Notes under the pieces: model-generated | Seen by the model: only the letters and a program-made list of their open reading frames with translations | Database searches by the model: none | What the model was told of the DNA's origin: nothing | DNA from: Streptomyces sp. NBC_00513 | GTDB taxonomy: Bacteria; Actinomycetota; Actinomycetes; Streptomycetales; Streptomycetaceae | Length of the DNA: 64,000 nucleotides | Reading direction: 5' to 3' | Assembly (NCBI RefSeq): GCF_041431415.1 | Contig: NZ_CP107845.1 | Location: 5,642,001-5,706,000 of the forward strand | Shown: positions 43,514-64,000 of the stretch, one piece after another | How positions within the stretch are numbered: the stretch's first letter is position 1 | Layout: the number at the start of each line of letters is the position of its first letter | Program-made: the position numbers and the translations under genes

Positions 43514-44518
43514 CTACGGCTTGACCGAGCGGTAGTACCGCCGGGCACCCTCGTGCAGGTCCAAGGGATCCGTGTAGATCGCCGTCCGCAGATCCACCAA
43601 CTGCGCGGCGTGCACCGCGCGCCCGATCCGGTCGCGGCTTTTGATCACGGTCCGGGTGAACTGTTCCGTCAGCTCCGCGCTCGTGTCCTCGCGGGTCACG
43701 AGCAGGTTCGGCACGGCGAGCGTGGCCACCGCCGCGGTGTTGCGGGCCCGCGCGTACGCCTCCTGCGGCATCACCGCCGCCCGGTAGTAGCGGGCGGGAC
43801 TGCCACTGCCCTGGAGCTTCTCCACCAGGTCGCCCAGCGGCACCAGCCGGATCTCGAAGCGCTCCGACAGCTCGTGCACCGCGTTCGTCGGGAGACCGCC
43901 GGACCAGAAGAAGGCGTCGATCCGCCCCTTCTCCAGCTCGGCCGGCATGGTGTCGATGCCTATGGACACCGGGGTGATGTCCTTCCGCGGGTCCAGCTTG
44001 GCCGCCGACAGCAGCCGCTCCGAGATCAGTCGGACGCCGGAGCCGTCCTGGCCGACCGCGACCCGCTTGCCCCGCAGGTCCCGCGTCGACTGCACCGAGG
44101 ACCCGGCGGGCACCACCAGCTGTACGTAGTCGTCGTACAGCCGCGCCACCCCGCGCAGCCGGTCGGCGCCCGGCTTCCCGTCGAGCCGGTACTTGGACAC
44201 CGCGTCCGCCGTCGCCACCGTGAAGTCGGCCTGCCCGGCGGCCACCCGCTGGAGGTTCTGCTGCGAGCCCTCACTGGGGTCCAGCCGCACCTTCACACCG
44301 GGGATGTCCTCGGCGAGGTCCTCCTTCAGGAGCTGCCCGTAGCGGTGGTAGACGCCGGTGGGGACACCCGTGCTGAACGCGAGGTCGCCCTTGAGTTCCG
44401 GCTCCCCGAACGGCCTCAGCCACCAGGCCAGCACGCCGAAGACCGTCACCACGGCCGCCAGGCCCCACAGGGCGCGGCGCCGGCTGATCCGGGGCACTCG
44501 GGACGGCAGGAGCGGCAT
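43514..44518 (-). CDS. TAXI family TRAP transporter solute-binding subunit
   Basis: 334 aa. A basic start and one signal-anchor helix (ALWGLAAVVTVFGVLAWWL) precede the TAXI fold: FSTGVPTGVYHRYGQLLKED, EGSQQNLQRVAAGQADFTVA and LRGKRVAVGQDGSGVRLISE. No TRAP membrane subunits are adjacent. The partner could lie elsewhere, or it may serve as a free sensor. It is downstream of a LysR gene on the same strand, 56 bp apart. Confidence 0.85.
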   Translation of the reverse strand: MPLLPSRVPRISRRRALWGLAAVVTVFGVLAWWLRPFGEPELKGDLAFSTGVPTGVYHRYGQLLKEDLAEDIPGVKVRLDPSEGSQQNLQRVAAGQADFTVATADAVSKYRLDGKPGADRLRGVARLYDDYVQLVVPAGSSVQSTRDLRGKRVAVGQDGSGVRLISERLLSAAKLDPRKDITPVSIGIDTMPAELEKGRIDAFFWSGGLPTNAVHELSERFEIRLVPLGDLVEKLQGSGSPARYYRAAVMPQEAYARARNTAAVATLAVPNLLVTREDTSAELTEQFTRTVIKSRDRIGRAVHAAQLVDLRTAIYTDPLDLHEGARRYYRSVKP

Positions 44519-44574
44519 GCTCGCGATCCTACCTTCGGGCCCGTACCGCCCCGGGGCGGGAGCGGCACGGTCCC

Positions 44575-45573
44575 TCAGCCACCGGGGCCCGCCGCCGTGG
44601 CGCCGCCCGCGTCCGCCGGCTCCGGGGCCCGGGCGTGCGCCGGTTCCACGTCGCCCGACGACGCCGGGTCCGTCAGGCCCGCCCGCAGCCGGGCCAGGAG
44701 ATGCGCCGCAGCCGGACCCGGCGGGACGCCCGTCCGCCAGGCCAGCGCCACCCGACCGCTCAGCGCCGGTTCGACGATCCGCAGCGCCACCAGGTCGCCG
44801 GCGACCCCCGCCTCCGCCCCGGCCGGCACCACCGCCGCCCCCAGCCCCCGCGCGGCCAACCGGACCAGTACGGGTGGCGCCGCCGCCTCGAAGTCCACCC
44901 GGGGCGCGAATCCGGCTTCCGCGCACGCCCGCTCCAACACCGCGCGCAGGCCCGTCCCGCGCGGCAGACTGATCAGTGCCCGCCCGCGCAGCGCCGCCAG
45001 CGGGATCCGGCCGTGCGCGGACTCCCGCACGAGCGGATCGCCGGCCCGAACCAACGCCACGAGGGGCTGGTCGAGCACCACCTGGAACGCGATCCCGGGC
45101 GGCGGGTCACCGGCCGGCCCGATCACCGCCAGGTCCAGCTCCCCGCTCGACAAACCGGCCAGCATCCGCTCCGAGGTGTCCTCCGACAGCGCGATCTCCA
45201 CTCCGGGGTGCGCTTCGTGGAAGTCGCCGAGCACCCCCACCACGTCCAGCCCCGCCACCACCGCCCCGGCCGCCCCCGGGATCAACCCGACCGCGACCCG
45301 CCCCCGCAGCAGCCCCGAGATCTCGTCGGCCGTGCGCCGCATCCCCTCCACCGCCGCCAGCGCGGCCCGCGCGTACGACAGCAACGCCGTCCCCGCCTCG
45401 GTCGGCGTCACCCGCCGTCCGGAACGATCGAGCAGCCGCACCCCCAGCTCCCGCTCCAACAGCCGGACCTGCGCGCTCACCCCCGGCTGGGACACGTGCA
45501 GCCGGACGCCCGCCCGCGTGAAGCCGCCCTCCTCGACGACCGTCACGAAGTACCGAAGCTGGGCCAGTTCCAT
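44575..45573 (-). CDS. LysR family transcriptional regulator
   Basis: 332 aa. N-terminal HTH (LAQLRYFVTVVEEGGFTRAG, HVSQPGVSAQVRLLERELG). C-terminal substrate-binding domain (about 90-300) and an Ala/Pro-rich end. It diverges from a mycothiol-dependent enzyme gene with 71 bp between and a 26-bp dyad in the gap, a classical LysR layout. Confidence 0.9.
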   Translation of the reverse strand: MELAQLRYFVTVVEEGGFTRAGVRLHVSQPGVSAQVRLLERELGVRLLDRSGRRVTPTEAGTALLSYARAALAAVEGMRRTADEISGLLRGRVAVGLIPGAAGAVVAGLDVVGVLGDFHEAHPGVEIALSEDTSERMLAGLSSGELDLAVIGPAGDPPPGIAFQVVLDQPLVALVRAGDPLVRESAHGRIPLAALRGRALISLPRGTGLRAVLERACAEAGFAPRVDFEAAAPPVLVRLAARGLGAAVVPAGAEAGVAGDLVALRIVEPALSGRVALAWRTGVPPGPAAAHLLARLRAGLTDPASSGDVEPAHARAPEPADAGGATAAGPGG

Positions 45574-58869: not shown

Positions 58870-59112
58870 GTCGTAAATCCCCCTGGTGTTTCGAGGCGTT
58901 GAACGGGGTGGAGCGCGGTCGCCGCACGGGTGTACGGCAAGCGCAGCACCCCACTATGCCGCTGCTCCCAAGGACGGCACAGCCCGGGGCCACGGTTCCT
59001 GCCCGGCGAACCATCCTCGGAACTTGTTCGATTCGGACATCTCGGAGGACATCGCGGCAGACCTTACGGCGGACTTTTCGGTGGATATCGAGGACGACAG
59101 CGGGGCGGACCA

Positions 59113-59233
59113 CACGAGGGACTTCGGGGCAGACTTCGCGAGGGTCTTGGCGACGGACAACACGAGGGACTTCGGGGCGGACTTCGCGACGGACTTGGCG
59201 ACGGACTTGGCGACGGACTCGGCGACGGACAAG
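59113..59233. repeat. Minisatellite upstream of the aminotransferase
   Basis: A 48-bp unit beginning CACGAGGGACTTCGGGGC is repeated at 59113 and 59161, and its end breaks into four 12-bp units (GCGACGGACTTG and variants, 59186-59233). The whole gap 58870-59355 (486 bp) carries no convincing gene: both strands have open low-complexity frames. No iron box (TTAGGTTAGGCT type) was seen. Confidence 0.75.
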
Positions 59234-59355
59234 GATCTTCGGTCCACCCGTGATCCGCGGCCGCCACCGTCGTTGGTACGTACGGGGGACGGGGGAGCAG
59301 CGTTCATGTTCGAAACGCAATCCGGAAGAGAATCCGTGCGGGAGGACCGACACTC

Positions 59356-60723
59356 GTGGCTTTGAGCGAGGCTTTCACCGAGTCGGCCGCGGCCGCGGAG
59401 CAGATCCCGCCGCAAGGAACCAGAGGACCCGTCGCCGCCGAAACCATCCTGCGCAGACAGGCGCAACGAGAGTCCGCCGCCCGGACATACGCGCGCTCGC
59501 TGCCCATCGTTCCGGTGCGCGCCCGGGGCCTGACGATCGAGGGCGCGGACGGACGGCGCTACCTCGACTGTCTGTCCGGCGCGGGCACGCTCGCCCTCGG
59601 GCACAACCACCCCGTGGTGCTCGAAGCCATCCGTGCCGTCCTCGACTCCGGGGCACCGCTGCACGTCCTCGACCTGGCCACCCCGGTCAAGGACGCCTTC
59701 ACCACCGAGCTGTTCGCGAACCTTCCGGCAGCGCTCGCGGCCGACGCCCGGATCCAGTTCTGTGGGCCGGCCGGGACGGACGCCGTCGAAGCCGCGCTCA
59801 AGCTGGTCCGCACCGCCACCGGGCGTTCCGGACTGATGGCCTTCACGGGTGCGTACCACGGCATGACCGCGGGAGCCCTGGACGCCTCCGGTGGAGCCCC
59901 CGACGTACGGGTCACCCGGCTTCCGTATCCACAGGACCACCGCTGCCCGTTCGGTGTCGGCGGGGCCGAGGGCGCCCGACTCGGCGCCCGTTGGACCGAG
60001 AGCCTGCTCGACGACCCGAAGGGCGGAGTACCCACCCCCGCCGGGCTCATCGTCGAACCCGTACAAGGGGAAGGCGGCGTCCACCCCGCTCCGGACGACT
60101 GGCTCCGGCGGATGCGCGAGATCACCGAGGCCCGCGGGATCCCGCTGATCGCGGACGAGGTCCAGACGGGTGTGGGGCGCACCGGTGCCTTCTGGGGCGT
60201 GGACCACGCGGGAGTGGTGCCCGACGTGATGGTGCTGTCCAAGGCCATCGGCGGCAGCCTTCCGCTCGCGGTGATCGTCTACCGGTCCGAACTCGACGTC
60301 TGGGCGCCCGGCGCCCACGCCGGCACGTTCCGCGGCAACCAACTGGCCATGGCCGCGGGTACCGCCACTCTGGCCTACGTCCGCCGCAACAACCTCGCGG
60401 AACGCGCCGGGGTGCTGGGCGAACGCATGCTGACCGCCTTGCGCGCATTGGCCGCCGACCATTCGTGCATCGGCGACGTACGAGGTCGCGGCCTGATGCT
60501 GGGCATCGAACTCGTGGACCCCGACACCGGGGACGCTGCCCCGGACCTCGCCGCCACCGTCCGCCGGGAGTGCCTGGACCGCGGGCTGATCGTCGAGCTC
60601 GGGGGCCGCCACTCCTGCGTGGTCCGCCTGCTGCCCCCGCTGACCCTGACCGACGAGCAGGCCGCAGCCGTCCTGGAGCGGCTGGCCGACGCCATCGCCG
60701 CCGCCGCCCGACGGTCCCACTGA
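59356..60723 (+). CDS. Diaminobutyrate-2-oxoglutarate aminotransferase family
   Basis: 455 aa class III PLP aminotransferase. The PLP lysine is Lys296 in VLSKAIGGSLP, with FTGAYHGMTAGALDASGG and LIADEVQTGVGRTGAFWG. It resembles RhbA/PvdH-type enzymes that feed diaminobutyrate or diaminopropane into siderophores. GTG 59356 follows GGGAGGA. The next gene, 26 bp downstream, is a NIS synthetase, so the two are likely one operon. Confidence 0.88.
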   Translation: MALSEAFTESAAAAEQIPPQGTRGPVAAETILRRQAQRESAARTYARSLPIVPVRARGLTIEGADGRRYLDCLSGAGTLALGHNHPVVLEAIRAVLDSGAPLHVLDLATPVKDAFTTELFANLPAALAADARIQFCGPAGTDAVEAALKLVRTATGRSGLMAFTGAYHGMTAGALDASGGAPDVRVTRLPYPQDHRCPFGVGGAEGARLGARWTESLLDDPKGGVPTPAGLIVEPVQGEGGVHPAPDDWLRRMREITEARGIPLIADEVQTGVGRTGAFWGVDHAGVVPDVMVLSKAIGGSLPLAVIVYRSELDVWAPGAHAGTFRGNQLAMAAGTATLAYVRRNNLAERAGVLGERMLTALRALAADHSCIGDVRGRGLMLGIELVDPDTGDAAPDLAATVRRECLDRGLIVELGGRHSCVVRLLPPLTLTDEQAAAVLERLADAIAAAARRSH

Positions 60724-60749
60724 CCCCACCCGCACCCCAAGGACCTCCG

Positions 60750-63700
60750 ATGCCGGACCCCTCCGCCCCCCACCCCGCCCCTTCCCCGAGGGCCGGCAGC
60801 CCGACGCCGACCCCCACGCCGGAGCAGACCCCCACACCGACGCCGACCCTCACACCCGCGCCCGGCACGAGCCCGGCGCCCGGCACGAGCCCGGCGCCCG
60901 GCACGAGCCCGGCGCCCGGCACGAGCCCGGAGTTCAGCCCGGGGGCGGAGTTCAGCCCGAGGGCGACTTCGAGCCCCGAACCCAATCCGGGCGCGAGTCG
61001 CCGGCCGGGCTGGGCCCTCCGGCTGGGGGAGAGCCCGGCTCTGGAGGTCAGCGGGAGCGCGGGCTGCGATCCGGTCGTGGACCGCGATCCCGACTCGGAC
61101 CTCGGCCCAAGGGAGGAGGTCCCGGGCCCGGAGTTCAGCCCGGGCCGAGGCCGCCGTCCGAGTCCGGAGCCCACGCCGCTTTCCGGCGCGGCTCACCCCG
61201 CCGCGTTCGCCGCCGCGCCTGAAGCTCCCCACCCTGCCCCTCCTCTCGTGCGTGCGGCCCCGGGCGCCCGGACCCCCGACCCGGTCAGCGCCCCGACCGC
61301 CTCAACCCCGACGGCCTCAACCCCGACCGCCTCGGGTCTGGCCGCCCCGGGTCTGGCCGCATCGGTCAGGTCTCCGGGCCCGGCTTTGACCACCCCGGCT
61401 GCCGCAGTGTCATCTCCCTCTACTTCGCCACCGGGCTCGGCTCCGACCGTCACGGTCACGGGCACGGTCAGCGCCCCGGAGGACGCGAACCTGGTCGACT
61501 CAGCCTCGACTCCGGCCTCGACGCCGGCTTCTGCTTCGGCTTTGACTTCTGCTTCGACTTCGACTTCGAGGGCGTCCGCCTCTGGCCGAGCCTCGGTTCC
61601 GGGCGGGACGCCGGCTCAGGAGACCTCGGCAGCGGAGACGTGGTCAGCACCGGTTCTGTCGCCTACGGCGGCCCTGGACTGGGCGGTGGCTCGCTCCGCG
61701 CACGCCCCCGTCCCCGCCGGCCCGGCAGTCCCGGTCAGCTCCGAGTCCCTCGCCGCCCGGACTTCAACCCACCCGCGCCCGGGCACACGGACGCCCGCCC
61801 CGAGCTCGGCGACAGGTCACCGGCTCCCGGCGTTGGCCACCCTGTCCTCCTGGCCGGCCCCGGATCCCGCCCCGGCGGTGAGCCCGGCCCAGTCGGCCCC
61901 GAGCAACGGTCCCGTGCTCGCTGCCCGGCCCCCACACGGCACGCCCGCGCAGGGGGCCACGGGCCAGGACCTCACTCCGCTCCTCTGGCTCGCCCCCACA
62001 CCGCTCGGCTCGGGACCGGCTCCGGCCGAGGCCCGGTCCCTCGACCCGGGAGACCCAGGACCCGGCCGGGCCCAGGCGTCGTCCCCGATCCAGAGGGCGT
62101 CCCGGGAGGACACCCTCTCGGCCCACTCCGTACCGGATCCGGTACGAGACACCGCCCCCACCTCAGCACCAAGCCAGCCCACCCCGGGCGCCCGGCCGGA
62201 CTCGACACCGACACTGGGCACCCACCAGAACCCGCCCGGTTCCGACACCGCACCCGGTTTCGACACCCTGCCCACTCCCGAGGCCGCGCCCAGCCTCAGC
62301 CCCAGCGCAAGCCCAGGTCCCAGCGCAAGCGCAAGCGCAAGCGCAAGCCCCGGCCCCGGAGTCGCCCCGGCGCCGGAGGCCGCCCGGCCGCCCAAGGCCG
62401 CTCCGGCGGCAGGCCCGGAGTCCGACCAAGCGCCGGATGTGGCGGAGTACCGCAGCGCCCCGGCCGCCCCGGAAGCCGACCGTTACCAGGCCGCCCCAAC
62501 GTCCCGGGCCGTCCCATCCGCAGTCGATCCAAGGTCCCGGGCCGAGGAGCCGTCCCGGGCCGAGGACGCGCCACCGGCCGAGGCGGCGGCCGAACCGCAC
62601 CCCACGGCGGTGTCCCCCGGCGGCGGCGTGCCACGGCAGTTGGGCGGGAGCCGCAGATCCGGAGCCGGAGGAGCCGGTCCCGTCGGATCGGGATCGGCCA
62701 TGCTCCCCGATCCCCTCGACCACCCCGATCCGGCCCTCGCCGCCGAGGCCGCTGCGGTGGAGAACCTGCTTCGGTGCTGGGTCCGCGAAAGCGGCCTCGG
62801 CCGCCCCGACGGGCCCGCCGGAACACCGCTCCGCATCCCCCTCCCCGCATCCGGCACGGCGGTGCTCGTCGCAGTCCGGTACTGGTCCTCGGCCGGCTGG
62901 CACCGGTTCGCCTCCGCCCGGATCGAAGGCGCCCCGGCCGAATCCCCCGCCCTGGACGCCGTGACCCTCGCCGCGCTCATCGCGCGTGAGGGCACCGGCC
63001 GAGGTGGCGCCGATCTGGTGGGCCGGGTCGCCGACTCGGTCCAGCGCACGGCGGAGTTCATCGCCGACCGGCGAGCCCGCCCCGCCGCCCCCGCCCCCGT
63101 CGCCGAGGACCGATTCCTCACCGCCGAACAGTCGCTCCTCCTCGGCCATCCCCTGCACCCGACCCCGAAGAGCCGCGAAGGCCTCTCCGAAGCCGAGGTA
63201 CGTCGCTACTCACCCGAACTCCACGGCTCCTTCCCCGTGTACTGGTTCGCGGTCGCGCCCGCCGTCCTCGCCACCGACTCCGCCTGGACCGAACGAGGCC
63301 GCCCGGTTTCCGCCGCCCAACTGCTCGCCCGCCTCGCACCCGGCCTCCAACCGCCCACCGGCACCACCCTTCTTCCGCTGCACCCCTGGCAGGCCCGCGA
63401 CCTCCTCCAACGCCCGGCCGTGGCCGCCCTGTGCGACGCCGGACTACTGACCGACATGGGCCCGTACGGTGACCCCTGGTACCCCACCTCCTCCATTCGC
63501 ACCGTCCACCGCCCCGGTTCCCCCGCGATGCTCAAGCTGTCCCTGGGCCTGCGCATCACCAACTCCCGCAGGGAGAACCTCCGCAAGGAACTCCACCGCG
63601 GCGTCGAGGTTCACCGCCTTCTGCGCGCCGGACTCGCAGAGCAATGGCAGTCGTCCCACCCCGGTTTCGACATCGTCCGCGACCCCGCCTGGGTCGCCGT

Positions 63701-64000
63701 CGACTCCCTCGACGGCACACCCATCCCCGGACTCGACGCCCTCCTGCGCCACAACCCCTTCCACTCCGACGACGACACCCTCTGCATCGCCGCGCTGACC
63801 ACTCCCCGCCCATGGCCCGGTCGGACCACGATGCGCTCCCCGCTCGCCGAGACAGTCGCCCGGCTCGCCACCTCCACCGGGCGCTCGGTCCCCGCCGTCG
63901 CCGCCGAGTGGTTCCTGCGCTACCTCGACCACGTGGTCCTGCCGATCCTCGCCCTCGACGCGCTCGCCGGAGTCGCCCTCGAAGCGCACCAACAGAACAC
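60750..64000 (+). CDS. NIS siderophore synthetase (IucA/IucC) with long disordered N-terminus (3' truncated)
   Basis: Open to the window edge, at least 1083 aa. AAGGA (60739-60743) lies 6 nt before ATG 60750. Residues 1-650 are Pro/Ala/Ser/Thr-rich low complexity with repeats (PGTSPA x4, TASTP, SASASA). The IucA/IucC domain starts near Met651 (position 62700), in the same frame with no stop between: EQSLLLGHPLHPTPKSREG, LHPWQ, PTSSIRTV, KLSLGLRITNSRRE and the EAHQQN motif at the edge. It couples amines to carboxylates using ATP. If the extension is not translated, the gene would start at 62700, but no good RBS is seen there. Confidence 0.8.
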   Translation, partial: MPDPSAPHPAPSPRAGSPTPTPTPEQTPTPTPTLTPAPGTSPAPGTSPAPGTSPAPGTSPEFSPGAEFSPRATSSPEPNPGASRRPGWALRLGESPALEVSGSAGCDPVVDRDPDSDLGPREEVPGPEFSPGRGRRPSPEPTPLSGAAHPAAFAAAPEAPHPAPPLVRAAPGARTPDPVSAPTASTPTASTPTASGLAAPGLAASVRSPGPALTTPAAAVSSPSTSPPGSAPTVTVTGTVSAPEDANLVDSASTPASTPASASALTSASTSTSRASASGRASVPGGTPAQETSAAETWSAPVLSPTAALDWAVARSAHAPVPAGPAVPVSSESLAARTSTHPRPGTRTPAPSSATGHRLPALATLSSWPAPDPAPAVSPAQSAPSNGPVLAARPPHGTPAQGATGQDLTPLLWLAPTPLGSGPAPAEARSLDPGDPGPGRAQASSPIQRASREDTLSAHSVPDPVRDTAPTSAPSQPTPGARPDSTPTLGTHQNPPGSDTAPGFDTLPTPEAAPSLSPSASPGPSASASASASPGPGVAPAPEAARPPKAAPAAGPESDQAPDVAEYRSAPAAPEADRYQAAPTSRAVPSAVDPRSRAEEPSRAEDAPPAEAAAEPHPTAVSPGGGVPRQLGGSRRSGAGGAGPVGSGSAMLPDPLDHPDPALAAEAAAVENLLRCWVRESGLGRPDGPAGTPLRIPLPASGTAVLVAVRYWSSAGWHRFASARIEGAPAESPALDAVTLAALIAREGTGRGGADLVGRVADSVQRTAEFIADRRARPAAPAPVAEDRFLTAEQSLLLGHPLHPTPKSREGLSEAEVRRYSPELHGSFPVYWFAVAPAVLATDSAWTERGRPVSAAQLLARLAPGLQPPTGTTLLPLHPWQARDLLQRPAVAALCDAGLLTDMGPYGDPWYPTSSIRTVHRPGSPAMLKLSLGLRITNSRRENLRKELHRGVEVHRLLRAGLAEQWQSSHPGFDIVRDPAWVAVDSLDGTPIPGLDALLRHNPFHSDDDTLCIAALTTPRPWPGRTTMRSPLAETVARLATSTGRSVPAVAAEWFLRYLDHVVLPILALDALAGVALEAHQQN
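60858..60929 (+). repeat. Four 18-bp tandem repeats in the synthetase extension
   Basis: GCGCCCGGCACGAGCCCG is present four times without interruption, encoding APGTSP. The repeat preserves the frame, and related sequence continues to about 61000. Confidence 0.85.

Follow-up and report, generated by a model that had tools for sequence, protein, structure and literature searches.

Probable in-frame growth of a disordered N-terminal spacer ahead of a conserved VPRQ motif in CsbB, a predicted siderophore synthetase of Streptomyces

The csb gene cluster has been described in Streptomyces sp. YIM 121038, and the part of that paper available here tabulates CsbB at 818 aa, gives CsbC a polyproline N-terminal extension of about 80 aa, and reports that disruption of csbC failed and that no csb product was found (PMC9600172). 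An over-long CsbB is thus already in print, in this part of the source as a bare number. In the accessible part of a second paper, sco5799-sco5801 of S. coelicolor are called 'putative siderophore' (PMC7324645). A search of open-access papers for disordered or extended N-termini of NIS synthetases returned nothing relevant beyond PMC9600172.

The stretch of DNA analysed here, 64,000 nucleotides from the 8.6 Mb genome of Streptomyces sp. NBC_00513, is referred to as the window. At one end it carries csbA (Table 1), whose product scores above the cut-off of TIGR00709 and below those of the narrower diaminobutyrate models PRK06938 and PRK06931. The csbA stop codon (60721-60723) lies 26 nt before the csbB start. 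Located 3' of csbB are genes for a GNAT acyltransferase, another IucA/IucC synthetase and, by Pfam, a helicase; from their translations, we take the helicase to be DinG and its neighbour LexA, and the gene beyond LexA is presumably a ribonucleotide reductase. The order transaminase, IucA/IucC, GNAT, IucA/IucC, dinG, lexA was found at this locus, and it matches the csbABCD layout of a cryptic Streptomyces siderophore cluster; sco5799-sco5801 are presumably its orthologous locus. No match to an iron-box consensus, at up to 3 mismatches, was found in the window. Between a protease-like gene and csbA (58954-59300) there are short repeats, with SVAKS- or RTTRGTSG-like translations on the two strands.

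Table 1 Coordinates of csbA, csbB and their features, numbered from the first nucleotide of the window.
Feature	Position	Strand	Basis or remark
csbA, class-III aminotransferase, diaminobutyrate-2-oxoglutarate transaminase type	59356..60723	+	PF00202, E 8.1e-87
Shine-Dalgarno-like AAGGA	60739..60743	+	6 nt 5' of ATG; sequence
CsbB hypervariable disordered spacer, residues 1-626, P/A/S/T/G rich	60750..62627	+	
Three 18-bp (6-residue) tandem arrays, side by side	60801..60965	+	Tandem Repeats Finder
15-bp tandem arrays, TASTP type	61291..61365	+	Tandem Repeats Finder
6/12/18-bp Ser/Ala/Pro array (SASASA)	62298..62350	+	Tandem Repeats Finder
Conserved VPRQ motif, residues 627-630, 5' of Met651	62628..62639	+	relatives
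CsbB IucA/IucC NIS-synthetase part, 578 aa, to window-equivalent 64436	62700..64000	+	PF04183

The csbB frame is stop-free from ATG 60750 to a stop at the position equivalent to 64436, outside the window, and its 1228 codons comprise a 650-residue extension followed by an IucA/IucC part of 578 aa. CsbB matches PF04183 over residues 789-1017 (E 9.2e-65; 219 bits against a curated cut-off of 25), and its last part, up to the edge of the window, matches PF06276, so that by profile CsbB is an IucA/IucC (NIS) synthetase. The best sequence match of the catalytic part is IucA (E 3.1e-52). An AlphaFold model of a short orthologue, L040, built with 36 sequences and standing in for the window protein, had a mean pLDDT of 74.1, with residues 1-48 under 50. 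Against the PDB it matched IucA best (5jm8, E 8.4e-35) and AcsD next, and the predicted fold is of the IucA/AcsD type.

The commonest residues named for the extension are P (20.5%), A (19.1%), S (13.7%), T (8.9%) and G (8.6%), which together account for 71% of the first 650 residues, and inspection of its N-terminus, MPDPSAPHPAPSP, by eye, with a possible role in secretion or anchoring in mind, revealed no hydrophobic stretch. The start, frame and length given for it in a preliminary description of this DNA were right, and the 18-bp tandem repeats reported there are real, as are 15-bp arrays. The drop in GC3 described within the extension was also seen, with values down to 0.69-0.76 in counting windows beginning at 61230-61470. 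The slippage or local frame change that had been proposed for 61320-61700 is not supported: start and frame are kept in relatives, and the stretch is stop-free and rich in Ser, Thr and Ala, whose codons fit a low GC3, so that no frame change is needed.

An open frame by itself is weak evidence of coding in DNA of such composition. Among sequences simulated at the length and composition of the extension (500 for each model), 4.2% were open with an order-1 and 27.8% with an order-2 Markov chain. The window holds other open P/A/S/T/G-rich stretches, and parts of the extension within 61101-61401 have GC2 above GC3 as these do, so that composition alone cannot decide whether it is coding. Both observations would suit untranslated GC-rich, low-complexity DNA that is open by chance or through an assembly artefact. 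The other open stretch examined, 44447-45197, differs in being antisense to a gene, presumably LysR-like. Stronger evidence came from relatives, since start, frame and VPRQ are conserved in dozens of species, which makes a chance frame most improbable.

Besides the window locus, the sample comprised named Streptomyces loci, limited to the best 80 of 585. The end of the transaminase gene and the start of the domain could both be located in 69 of these loci (from the window's and L007-L086), and 67 of the 69 had the conserved start after the csbA stop and a frame open to the domain. The two misses were an assembly gap in L050 and a frameshift inside the extension of L007, by which the conserved start and the domain lie in different frames. 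Of the stops or frameshifts in orthologues that had been named beforehand as evidence against the extension, L007 is the one case. The start chosen by the script lay 8-43 nt past the csbA stop in 56 of 68 loci (outside this range: L007, L022, L031, L037, L038, L043, L066, L067, L072, L077, L079 and L085); in L022 it sits 4 nt before the scored transaminase end, and in L038, L043 and L067 an earlier start at +29 exists that the script skipped. In 65 of 68 loci a ribosome-site-like match of at least 4 bases lay ahead of the start selected, although the script favours such starts. MNPTPAP and MPDP(HQSTP) recur as CsbB N-termini among the relatives.

Fifteen long extensions (6831 codons) contained no in-frame stop, the five other frames having 30, 46, 39, 26 and 67; these extensions had been chosen as open, and the zero is partly due to that selection. 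Local DNA matches between extensions, many of them overlapping, were in phase in 39 of 42 cases. All 35 non-overlapping tandem arrays in the long extensions have a period divisible by three, a result partly built in by codon periodicity, as 8 of 9 arrays in a control region do too. Taken as a whole, the comparison with relatives indicates that the extension is real and probably translated, and the earlier description, of a very long N-terminal stretch that looks disordered and lies in a single frame, is supported.

A VPRQ motif precedes the domain in most relatives. Under a strict definition (in frame, at most 140 aa from the first helix) 89 of the 112 loci carried it, three being duplicates of others: 70 of the 80 named and window loci, and 19 of 32 unnamed ones; under a relaxed definition it was found in 84 of 93 anchored loci, another 17 not being anchorable. 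Among 120 listed database proteins 119 could be anchored, and 115 had a relaxed VPRQ within 130 aa. VPRQ was absent from the N-termini of eight loci of other genera (L117-L124). The miss of L088 in the codon survey was a wrong-frame match, and the same gene with more flank (L125, L165) has the motif. Codons for V, P and R vary synonymously across loci, and in the 84 relaxed-motif loci the valine codon is GTG in 54, GTC in 21, GTT in 5 and GTA in 3, with GCC in one. VPRQ as part of the fold was not supported, pLDDT being below 50 there in the L040 model, which neither docks nor orders the motif. VPRQ would be the selected element of the tail, and is probably a short linear motif that contacts either a partner protein or CsbB.

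Conservation of VPRQ in frame upstream of Met651 does not fit translation from that residue alone, nor initiation at or beyond 62700, which the preliminary description had named as an outcome that would count against it. Initiation could still occur mostly within the extension, at the in-frame GTG 62439, 62610 or 62628. CsbB would then have a short tail that includes VPRQ, and the long upstream part, though open, would be little used. In-frame GTG and TTG codons are indeed present, and in L007 the domain and VPRQ share a frame though the frameshift separates both from the conserved start. CsbB N-termini also vary widely among close relatives in the database (P0001-P0120), so that start codons seem to be called inconsistently and the tail seems under-annotated. 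The spacer, searched against the 120 listed proteins, gave no alignable match save mainly for its last 50 residues. Such initiation is nonetheless rather improbable, as the start after csbA is conserved and repeats far upstream keep the frame. By eye, the 18 nt before each of the 13 internal GTG/TTG codons lacked AAGGA, AGGA, GAGG and GGAG, and VPRQ itself was rejected as an alternative start, its valine being encoded by GTC, GTT or GTA in 29 of 84 loci and replaced by an alanine codon in one.

Measured CsbB tails (n=68) had a median of 62.5 aa; 57 did not exceed 130 aa, and the other 11 measured 150 aa or more, the longest 911. For L007 only the part after the frameshift was counted, and the values of L038, L043 and L067 were entered manually. 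The usual tail in the sampled Streptomyces is about 40-70 aa. Nearly all very long tails fall in the clade of the window protein (16 rows, with a support of 92 that falls short of the 95 mark), the eleventh, L035 with 166 aa, lying elsewhere in the tree. In this clade tails of 650, 378, 316, 224, 178, 185, 388, 782, 779 and 911 aa were measured, three more are cut by contig ends (at least 361, 509 and 832 aa) and one is frameshifted. Two clade members have short tails, L011 of 50 aa and L013 of 48 aa; with these and the frameshifted L007, tail length looks dispensable. The repeat units of the long tails differ between species.

In frame-neutral alignments of seven pairs, spacer dN/dS was 0.72-1.08 for the csbB frame and 0.80-1.29 for the two alternatives, the in-frame value being lower than both others in four pairs, tied in two and above one of them in one; selection on the encoded residues is therefore barely visible, and is no proof of coding alone. 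Values of 0.50-0.60 from protein-guided alignments of seven pairs had suggested strong purifying selection on the spacer, which was mostly lost in the frame-neutral ones. Domain values were 0.08-0.32 (six pairs, protein-guided). Outside VPRQ, the spacer thus appears to evolve almost neutrally.

Low-complexity sequence was also seen elsewhere in the operon. In other Streptomyces, CsbB has a second insertion site within the domain, flanked by the segments ALL.RE and DLVARVADS, reaching 149-161 aa in L154, L152 and L155 (7 of 112 loci were not measurable). The N-terminal tails of CsbC (GNAT) are variable too (L031, L160, L037), with as many as 386 aa preceding the conserved core in L031 if the first possible start is used. 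Disorder growth therefore affects more than one protein of the csb operon.

As for gene content, no csbD was found in the csbC-dinG interval of L007, L020, L059, L064, L072, L077, L079, L084 and L085, and csbA was not seen within 6 kb upstream in L059, L069 and L084. No transaminase was found upstream of L165, the csb locus of genome G012, where csbD is seemingly split: a short N-terminal fragment remains close to the locus, and a C-terminal fragment is found elsewhere in the chromosome, at G012:C1:6731994-6732608, as if after a rearrangement. The csb cluster erodes repeatedly.

The tail could instead be a selected tether or docking arm whose length matters and whose VPRQ binds a pathway partner, CsbD being the best candidate; VPRQ is kept amid variable surroundings, and the variable tail of CsbC would fit as well. 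Across 101 loci, VPRQ and csbD were both present in 74 and both absent in 14, with VPRQ only in 9 and csbD only in 4. L080 (no helix found), five loci with scant downstream sequence, three identical proteins, and L020, L044 and L050 (motif region cut by a contig start, unclear, or in an assembly gap) had been dropped. Absence of csbD was scored within each locus and, for 23 genomes, genome-wide: 13 gave nothing csbD-like at E 1e-100, and the other 10 gave a match, which in two is just a 47% relative and in one an incomplete copy. On the tree, VPRQ changed state 8 times over a branch length of 3.74 where csbD is lost, against 4 times over 9.45 elsewhere (nominal p 0.0065); however, parsimony reconstructs four of the eight changes as regains, and with only losses counted p was 0.17. 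An independent-pairs test on the tree (5 pairs) was not significant, with means of 1.6 pairs differing in the same way, 0.2 in the other and 3.2 without difference. csbD was lost in five lineages, two of which, each a single species (L007 and L165), retain VPRQ; L019 was scored csbD-positive but its match spans only 230 aa. The raw table is striking but the tree-aware tests are mixed, so VPRQ and csbD were not accepted as a proven pair and CsbD docking is a lead only. With clade tails of 48-911 aa and a nearly neutral spacer also against it, a length-dependent functional arm is unlikely. The more specific proposal, that VPRQ captures CsbD, the spacer being a fast-evolving tether in an NIS siderophore assembly line organised by a short linear motif, is also unlikely. 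The tail may still be the tether or scaffold suggested in the preliminary description, but most of it is near-neutral, and close species differ in its length over a range of about 50 to 911 aa.

It seems likely, then, that the extension is a disordered N-terminal tail of CsbB, a lineage-specific spacer that ballooned in frame before a conserved VPRQ. Comparison of relatives shows a conserved start right after csbA and a single open frame that runs through the spacer to the conserved VPRQ, from which a short linker of variable sequence leads to the catalytic fold. The region from start to VPRQ has ballooned in the clade of the window protein through repeated in-frame tandem duplications of species-specific units. 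It may have little or no sequence-specific function, acting at most as a length-insensitive flexible arm, and would be tolerated because it is flexible and exposed.

On this account, in-frame repeats can stretch the disordered tail of an enzyme from about 50 to 911 residues between close species without loss of the gene, and the drifting spacer can now be separated from one conserved, directly testable motif. If VPRQ binds a partner, it offers a handle on a Streptomyces siderophore cluster of cryptic product; if it binds none, CsbB is a clean natural case of near-neutral disorder growth and a caution on start-codon calls in GC-rich genomes.

Among known systems, CsbB of Streptomyces sp. YIM 121038 is closest, with the same gene order and, at 818 aa, an over-long protein like that of the window with its 650-aa extension; no discussion of the CsbB extension, of its expansion or of VPRQ was found in the available part of that paper (PMC9600172). 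The catalytic part of CsbB resembles IucA (5jm7, 5jm8) in sequence and, by the L040 model, IucA and then AcsD (2w02) in structure, whereas the eight matched NIS synthetase chains have 576-653 aa in total, none with a tail of the size of that in CsbB. In Borg proteins, as in CsbB, fast-evolving DNA tandem repeats give rise to P/T/S-rich disordered segments; in the accessible part of that study the Borg repeats are perfect and under very strong selection (PMC9879509), while those of CsbB are imperfect, appear nearly neutral and lie on a bacterial chromosome.
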